Assembly: GCA_003019595.1 (NCBI GenBank)
Contig: NEXD01000001.1
Span: 43,698 to 107,697 of the forward strand
From: Candidatus Marsarchaeota G1 archaeon BE_D
Lineage (GTDB): Archaea > Thermoproteota > Thermoprotei_A > Marsarchaeales > Marsarchaeaceae
Direction of reading: 5' to 3'
DNA length: 64,000 bases
Shown here: piece by piece, positions 36,738 to 48,016 of the stretch
How positions within the stretch are numbered: position 1 is the first letter of the stretch
How the letters are laid out: each line of letters begins with the position of its first letter
The notes under the pieces: generated by a model
Database searches by the model: none
What the model was told of the DNA's origin: nothing
The model's input: the letters and a program-made list of their open reading frames with translations, nothing else
Program-made: the position numbers and the translations under genes

Positions 36738-36839
36738 GCGGGGATGGCCGAGCTTGGCCAAAGGCGCGAGAGCGTAACTGCCGCGTGGCTTAGGACCTCG
36801 TGCGGAAGCGCTGCGTGGGTTCAAATCCCACTCCCCGCA
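36738..36839 (+). tRNA. tRNA-Leu(TAG) with a 17-nt non-canonical intron
   Basis: Class II tRNA: GCGGGGA/TCCCCGC acceptor and GTGGG-TTCAAAT-CCCAC T arm. The normal anticodon arm CGAGG-CTTAGGA-CCTCG is only obtained by removing AGCGTAACTGCCGCGTG (36771-36787), inserted inside the 5' anticodon stem (between positions 30 and 31, or 29 and 30). Long variable arm TGCGGAAGCGCTGC. Confidence 0.85.
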
Positions 36840-47469: not shown

Positions 47470-47545
47470 GGCCGCAGGCGGGATTTGAACCCGCGTTCCC
47501 CGGCTCCACAGGCCGGTGCGTTGACCAGACTACGCTACTGCGGCC
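47470..47545 (-). tRNA. tRNA-His(GTG)
   Basis: On minus: G-1 is encoded, then acceptor GCCGCAG/CTGCGGC with C73, so the His identity pair G-1:C73 is genomic. Anticodon stem CCGGC/GCCGG, loop CTGTGGA (anticodon GTG), T arm GCGGG-TTCAAAT-CCCGC. No intron. Confidence 0.92.
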
Positions 47546-47605
47546 ACACGCACAAATTCCAACAAAATTCTTATTTTTGACCAATATATAAGGTATTTCT
47601 GTGGT

Positions 47606-47718
47606 GGGCCCGTAGCTCAGCCTGGTAGAGCGGCAGGCTCATAAGCTCCATATCGGGCTGAGAGACCTGACGGTCGAGGGTTCAAAAGAGGCTTCCTCTG
47701 AAAATCCCTTCGGGCCCA
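47606..47718 (+). tRNA. tRNA-Met(CAT), elongator type, with two introns
   Basis: Acceptor GGGCCCG/CGGGCCC and D arm GCTC..GAGC are normal. The anticodon loop reads CTCATA, then a 21-nt intron (47644-47664), then A and CCTGA. The T stem GAGGG/CCCTT encloses TTCAA, an 18-nt insert (47686-47703, with AGAGG/CCTCT hairpin), then AT. Removing both restores TTCAAAT. A G27-A43 mismatch remains in the anticodon stem. Confidence 0.85.
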
Positions 47719-47731
47719 CCTCTTTAAAAAG

Positions 47732-48016
47732 GTGAAGACTATGGCAAAGGGAAAAGTTGTCGTGGTGGCAAAAATATATCCAAAAGACATTAATACCGAC
47801 AGAAACATGATATTACAACTCCTTTCTTTAAAATTGAATGGGATCGCTGAAATAAAAAAAGTGGAAGAAGAACCTATAGCGTTTGGTTTAGTCGCTTTAA
47901 AACTGCACATGGTTCTCCCAGAAGACACGGAAGGCGGCACTGATGTTATTGAAAATGCGGCAAGTTCTATCGAGCTTATAAGTAATGTAGAGATAACGCA
48001 TGTTTACAGATTATAG
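47732..48016 (+). CDS. ef1b: Translation elongation factor 1-beta
   Basis: A 94-aa nucleotide exchange factor for EF-1alpha. The start AKGKVVVVAKIYPKDINTD and the C-terminal VIENAASSIELISNVEITHVYRL are typical. GGTGA about 10 nt before the ATG may act as ribosome binding site. The gene begins 13 nt after tRNA-Met, so it may share its transcript. Confidence 0.94.
   Translation: MKTMAKGKVVVVAKIYPKDINTDRNMILQLLSLKLNGIAEIKKVEEEPIAFGLVALKLHMVLPEDTEGGTDVIENAASSIELISNVEITHVYRL

Follow-up and report, generated by a model that had tools for sequence, protein, structure and literature searches.

The 64,000-nt stretch of DNA analysed here (the window) is part of contig C1 of G000, a draft genome of 2.19 Mb in 195 contigs with an estimated completeness of 91% and contamination of 5.66%. 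At 47606–47718 on the forward strand, it carries a tRNA gene split into three exons (Table 1). With the introns bracketed, the gene reads GGGCCCG TA GCTC AGCCTGGTA GAGC G GCAGG CTCATA [AGCTCCATATCGGGCTGAGAG] A CCTGA CGGTC GAGGG TTCAAA [AGAGGCTTCCTCTGAAAA] T CCCTT CGGGCCC A. The preliminary description of the locus had these coordinates, and inserts of 21 nt and 18 nt, exactly right. The short gap between the 3′ end of the tRNA and the ATG of the EF-1β gene is retained in the relatives read, which suggests a tRNA-mRNA co-transcript from which the mRNA is released by tRNA 3′ processing.

Table 1. Features of the tRNA locus, in window coordinates.
Feature	Position	Strand	Basis
Intronless tRNA-His(GTG), divergent neighbour, kept in relatives	47470–47544	-	tRNA searches, relatives
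TATA-like box (ATATATAA), 5′ of the tRNA gene	47584–47591	+	sequence; resemblance to consensus only
Exon 1: acceptor 5′ strand, D arm, anticodon 5′ half (..CTCATA, last base is position 37)	47606–47643	+	at most 1 base different among same-family genomes
Canonical intron 37/38, 21 nt (A GCTC CATATC GGGC TGAG AG)	47644–47664	+	BHB; shuffles; same place in 5 relatives
Exon 2: position 38, anticodon stem 3′ strand, variable loop, T stem 5′ strand, T loop to position 59	47665–47686	+	sequence, relatives
T-loop intron 59/60, 18 nt (A GAGG CTT CCTC TGAA AA)	47687–47704	+	BHB; shuffles; 5 relatives
Exon 3: T60, T stem 3′ strand, acceptor 3′ strand, discriminator A73; CCA not encoded	47705–47718	+	sequence
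aEF-1β-like gene, downstream neighbour, start 22 nt past tRNA end	47741–48016	+	short spacing retained in relatives read

The gene was missed both by ARAGORN (bacterial code, no introns) and by the Rfam tRNA model at its gathering threshold, and in further ARAGORN trials it was recognised only once the T-loop insert had been removed. Removal of both introns yields a 74-nt cloverleaf with all stems present and a single mismatch, G27-A43; this predicted spliced tRNA contains CTCATAACC and TTCAAATCC. The mismatch is real, but it is not the oddity that it was first taken for: Lys(CTT), Lys(TTT), Arg(TCT), Arg(TCG) and Trp of the same genome have it too, several tRNAs with G27-A43 have G26-C44 beside it, and it is ordinary for the tRNAs of this genome.

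Introns were placed by the bulge-helix-bulge (BHB) rule, with the cut after the second base in each 3-nt bulge (arrows). The 37/38 motif consists of a 4-bp central helix, CTCA(32-35)/TGAG, the bulges TA↓A and AG↓A, and an inner helix GCTC/GGGC; the 59/60 motif has the central helix TTCA(54-57)/TGAA, also of 4 bp, the bulges AA↓A and AA↓T, and an inner helix GAGG/CCTC. Both introns in G000 therefore have the 4-bp central helix and the two 3-nt bulges that characterise archaeal BHB tRNA introns. When each intron was shuffled by composition while the exons were kept fixed, an equally good motif (4-bp central helix, inner helix of at least 4 bp) arose in 33 of 200,000 shuffles of the 37/38 intron, and in 30 of 200,000 for 59/60. 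The folding of both junctions into splicing-competent motifs confirms the earlier observation of a two-intron tRNA gene with one intron inside the T loop. The boundary proposed for that insert (TTCAA-insert-AT) fared less well, as the BHB rule favours 59/60 (TTCAAA-insert-T); the mature product is the same under either boundary because of the A-run at the junction.

We then asked which amino acid the tRNA serves. The gene had been described as tRNA-Met(CAT); its anticodon is CAU, and ARAGORN, going by the anticodon alone, names its spliced form tRNA-Met. However, a two-intron elongator tRNA-Met(CAU) is very unlikely. The genome has an initiator tRNA-Met at C1:24833 (A1-U72, GGG/CCC anticodon stem) and a separate elongator-type tRNA-Met at G000:C27:4194, both intact and intronless, and the body of the tRNA studied here is Ile-like: the mature sequence is identical to tRNA-Ile(GAU) at 63/74 positions, to the elongator at 45/75 and to the initiator at 47/75. 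It is also identical at 65/74 positions to a CAU tRNA of another genome, G107. The intact genes elsewhere and the Ile-like body led us to reject the methionine identity, the gene itself standing; as a candidate for the genome's own elongator gene, it is ruled out by the separate copy on C27 together with the low identity to it.

The remaining tRNA complement points to isoleucine. Once the names that ARAGORN gave to genes with introns (Tyr, Cys, Lys(TTT) and Leu(TAG)) had been corrected by eye, the 46 Rfam tRNA hits in the genome covered 45 of the 46 isoacceptors that are standard in archaea, with Arg(CCT) present twice. The sole isoacceptor absent from these hits is Ile2, and the gene described here is the 46th. 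No TAT anticodon, as expected of tRNA-Ile(UAU), occurs among the 46 hits, although in a genome 91% complete an intron-broken UAU gene could escape. A methionine reading would leave the common AUA codon without a reading tRNA (ATA accounts for 377 of 921 isoleucine codons, 41%, in 27 long ORFs of the window) and TiaS, encoded at C1:25457 (E 4.9e-36), without a substrate. The locus thus provides a CAU tRNA with an Ile-like body, distinct from initiator and elongator tRNA-Met, in a genome that has TiaS and in which no tRNA-Ile(UAU) was found. Being the missing isoacceptor and Ile(GAU)-like, alongside TiaS and frequent AUA codons, the gene is therefore almost certainly a tRNA-Ile2(CAU) that reads AUA codons, and not a methionine tRNA. 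If the isoacceptor set is complete, it must be functional.

We read the same locus in five other genomes of the family (G001–G005, four distinct sequences), making six with G000. The relatives of G000 all belong to one archaeal class, which resembles Thermoproteia in genome sizes and gene content. All five relatives have the tRNA gene with both introns at the same places, and they also retain the neighbouring EF-1β and tRNA-His genes. A contig search with EF-1β returned two named same-family records, unclassified archaeon FK5.bin12 and a 'Candidatus Marsarchaeota' bin, which carry sequences identical to ones in G001 and G003/G005. Exons are nearly invariant across G001–G005 (one or two bases different), and the introns vary in length from 14 to 21 nt at 37/38 and from 16 to 19 nt at 59/60. 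The 4-bp central helix at 59/60 is kept in all five relatives, as are the TGAA of the insert and the 3-nt bulges; the inner helix varies on both sides with its pairing preserved (GAGG/CCTC, GACC/GGTC, GAC/GTC, and GG/CC in G001). The 37/38 central helix is relaxed in the relatives, with three of four standard pairs. Fixed exons next to introns that diverge yet still pair are what splicing, and not decay, would predict.

This pattern bears on two further explanations. A decayed tRNA pseudogene broken by small insertions would account for a gene missed by bacterial-mode ARAGORN and Rfam, but we give it next to no credence: the introns diverge while the exons stay near-invariant in five other species, both inserts form BHBs, and no other Ile2 gene was found. 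Alternatively, the T-loop insert might stay in the mature tRNA as an extra hairpin that enlarges its T loop. By itself, this hairpin is stable; nevertheless, all relatives keep TGAA, the exact complement of TTCA(54-57), and the 3-nt bulges, which the endonuclease requires and a retained hairpin would not need, and exact removal gives back the standard TTCAAAT loop. Retention is thus extremely unlikely.

Candidate genes for the splicing enzyme are present. The EndA α subunit at C25:694 aligns over its length with the α subunit of A. pernix, including the crenarchaea-specific loop, whose broad-specificity lysine is aligned to A. pernix K44. A β-like EndA subunit at C38:2522 is similar to other archaeal EndAs over their structural half, with weaker matches to the known β subunits NEQ261 and PAE0789 and a weak Pfam score (E 0.0016). 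Together they point to a cognate (αβ)2 splicing endonuclease with the loop, the β match being the weaker one. Contig C38 also holds one of two tRNA-Arg(CCT) genes that are a base or two apart, the other being on G000:C8; C38 could be a duplicated or contaminating contig, the contamination of the genome being estimated at 5.66%. Enzymes of the (αβ)2 type that have the crenarchaea-specific loop accept relaxed and non-canonical motifs as substrates (PMC6379350), and an enzyme of this kind would fit the relaxed 37/38 motifs of the relatives.

Collectively, our results favour, with a probability of roughly 0.92, a single-copy tRNA-Ile2(CAU) with two BHB introns spliced by (αβ)2 EndA, whose C34 is converted to agmatidine by TiaS for the reading of AUA. 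In archaeal tRNA-Ile2(CAU), agmatidine is made by TiaS. Each intron of the precursor would pair with the adjoining exon as a BHB, and the (αβ)2 endonuclease would then cut both bulges of each motif. The exons would be ligated, presumably by an RtcB-type ligase, to give the mature 74-nt tRNA with anticodon CAU, and TiaS would finally change C34 to agmatidine such that AUA is read as isoleucine. For the precursor as a whole, the fold of minimum energy is dominated by pairing between the D arm and an intron and is not the cloverleaf with BHBs (-58.1 versus -41.8 kcal/mol), and correct splicing should therefore need folding help or a co-transcriptional order. In this fold, 12 nt of the 37/38 intron (UAUCGGGCUGAG) are complementary to the D arm (CUCAGCCUGGUA; window 47611–47664), an extent reached in ~0.055% of shuffles. 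Since this pairing is not conserved (12 pairs here, 5–7 in relatives), we left it out of the explanation; it is specific to this species and may be due to chance.

We also considered that the introns might serve as a maturation checkpoint which blocks TiaS action and mis-charging by MetRS until splicing is complete. In the unspliced RNA, C34 and A35 would be locked in a BHB helix and the T loop could not form the elbow, and the 12-nt D-arm complement could add a fold switch. If true, unmodified CAU tRNA-Ile2 would be kept from being read as methionine. Such a role appears unlikely to us.

The rarity of T-loop introns had been overstated. Position 59/60 is among the known non-canonical intron sites (PMC4090602), and the Thermoproteota genomes that we searched have introns there in nine or more isoacceptor types. 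A previous survey of 217 archaeal genomes counted 673 non-canonical introns, a single gene having as many as three introns (PMC8450103); two- or three-intron tRNAs are common in Thermoproteales (PMC4033280, PMC8450103), and T-arm introns are known in Caldiarchaeum (PMC3293823). A strict 59/60 pattern gave candidates in 94 of 397 related genomes, many by chance; candidates were counted only if they parsed as full tRNA genes, with isotypes read by eye, and those include Glu, Trp, Ser, Leu, Asp, Tyr, Arg, Pro and iMet. The Ile2 genes read in the sister family (f2) are intronless, whereas Trp and Ile(GAU) there have introns at 59/60. The first sister-family matches with GGCTCATA to be read were initiator tRNAs and not Ile2. 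In the rest of the class, the Ile2-type genes that were read have the 37/38 intron only. With 59/60 introns on varying isotypes across families, T-loop introns therefore come and go among isotypes in the phylum, and the one in Ile2 was either gained in this family or lost in the sister family.

The gene shares its combination of a canonical 37/38 and a non-canonical intron with multi-intron tRNA genes of Thermoproteales, other Crenarchaeota, Thaumarchaeota and Caldiarchaeum, but differs from them in lineage and isotype; the two-intron arrangement of Ile2 is found in 6/6 genomes read from the family and not in the sister-family Ile2 read. Like other archaeal tRNA-Ile2(CAU), it has the CAU anticodon, the Ile-like body and TiaS, with the 59/60 intron as an extra. 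Permuted tRNA genes of Thermofilum pendens are joined at 59/60 (PMC3218864) and share the T-loop site and the BHB logic, whereas the gene order here is normal and a simple cis intron occupies 59/60.

Other intron-bearing tRNA genes were noted. The iMet genes L109, L110 and L115, from other Thermoproteota families, look three-intron, 59/60 included, which is the join site of the permuted Thermofilum iMet genes (PMC3218864). In the sister family, tRNA-Ile(GAU) genes L158 and L159 combine a 59/60 intron with inserts in the anticodon arm. Within the window, tRNA-Leu(TAG) at 36738–36839 has its anticodon stem interrupted near 30/31 by a non-canonical intron; when run in intron mode, ARAGORN misnames the gene Pro(AGG), and otherwise it misses it. 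The tRNA-Trp gene L069 (G000:C20:6031-6168) has a long intron (~64 nt) at the canonical position. In other archaea, the canonical-position intron of tRNA-Trp hides a C/D box guide RNA.

The Ile2 gene is a new, lineage-conserved case of a known phenomenon, as 59/60 introns and multi-intron tRNAs have already been described in archaea, and the general picture of archaeal tRNA splicing is unchanged. It adds a 59/60 intron that is family-wide and has a covarying hairpin. In such genomes, the gene would escape a generic tRNA search, possibly creating a false decoding gap; with it, the decoding set is completed for an uncultured Thermoproteota lineage that leans heavily on AUA.
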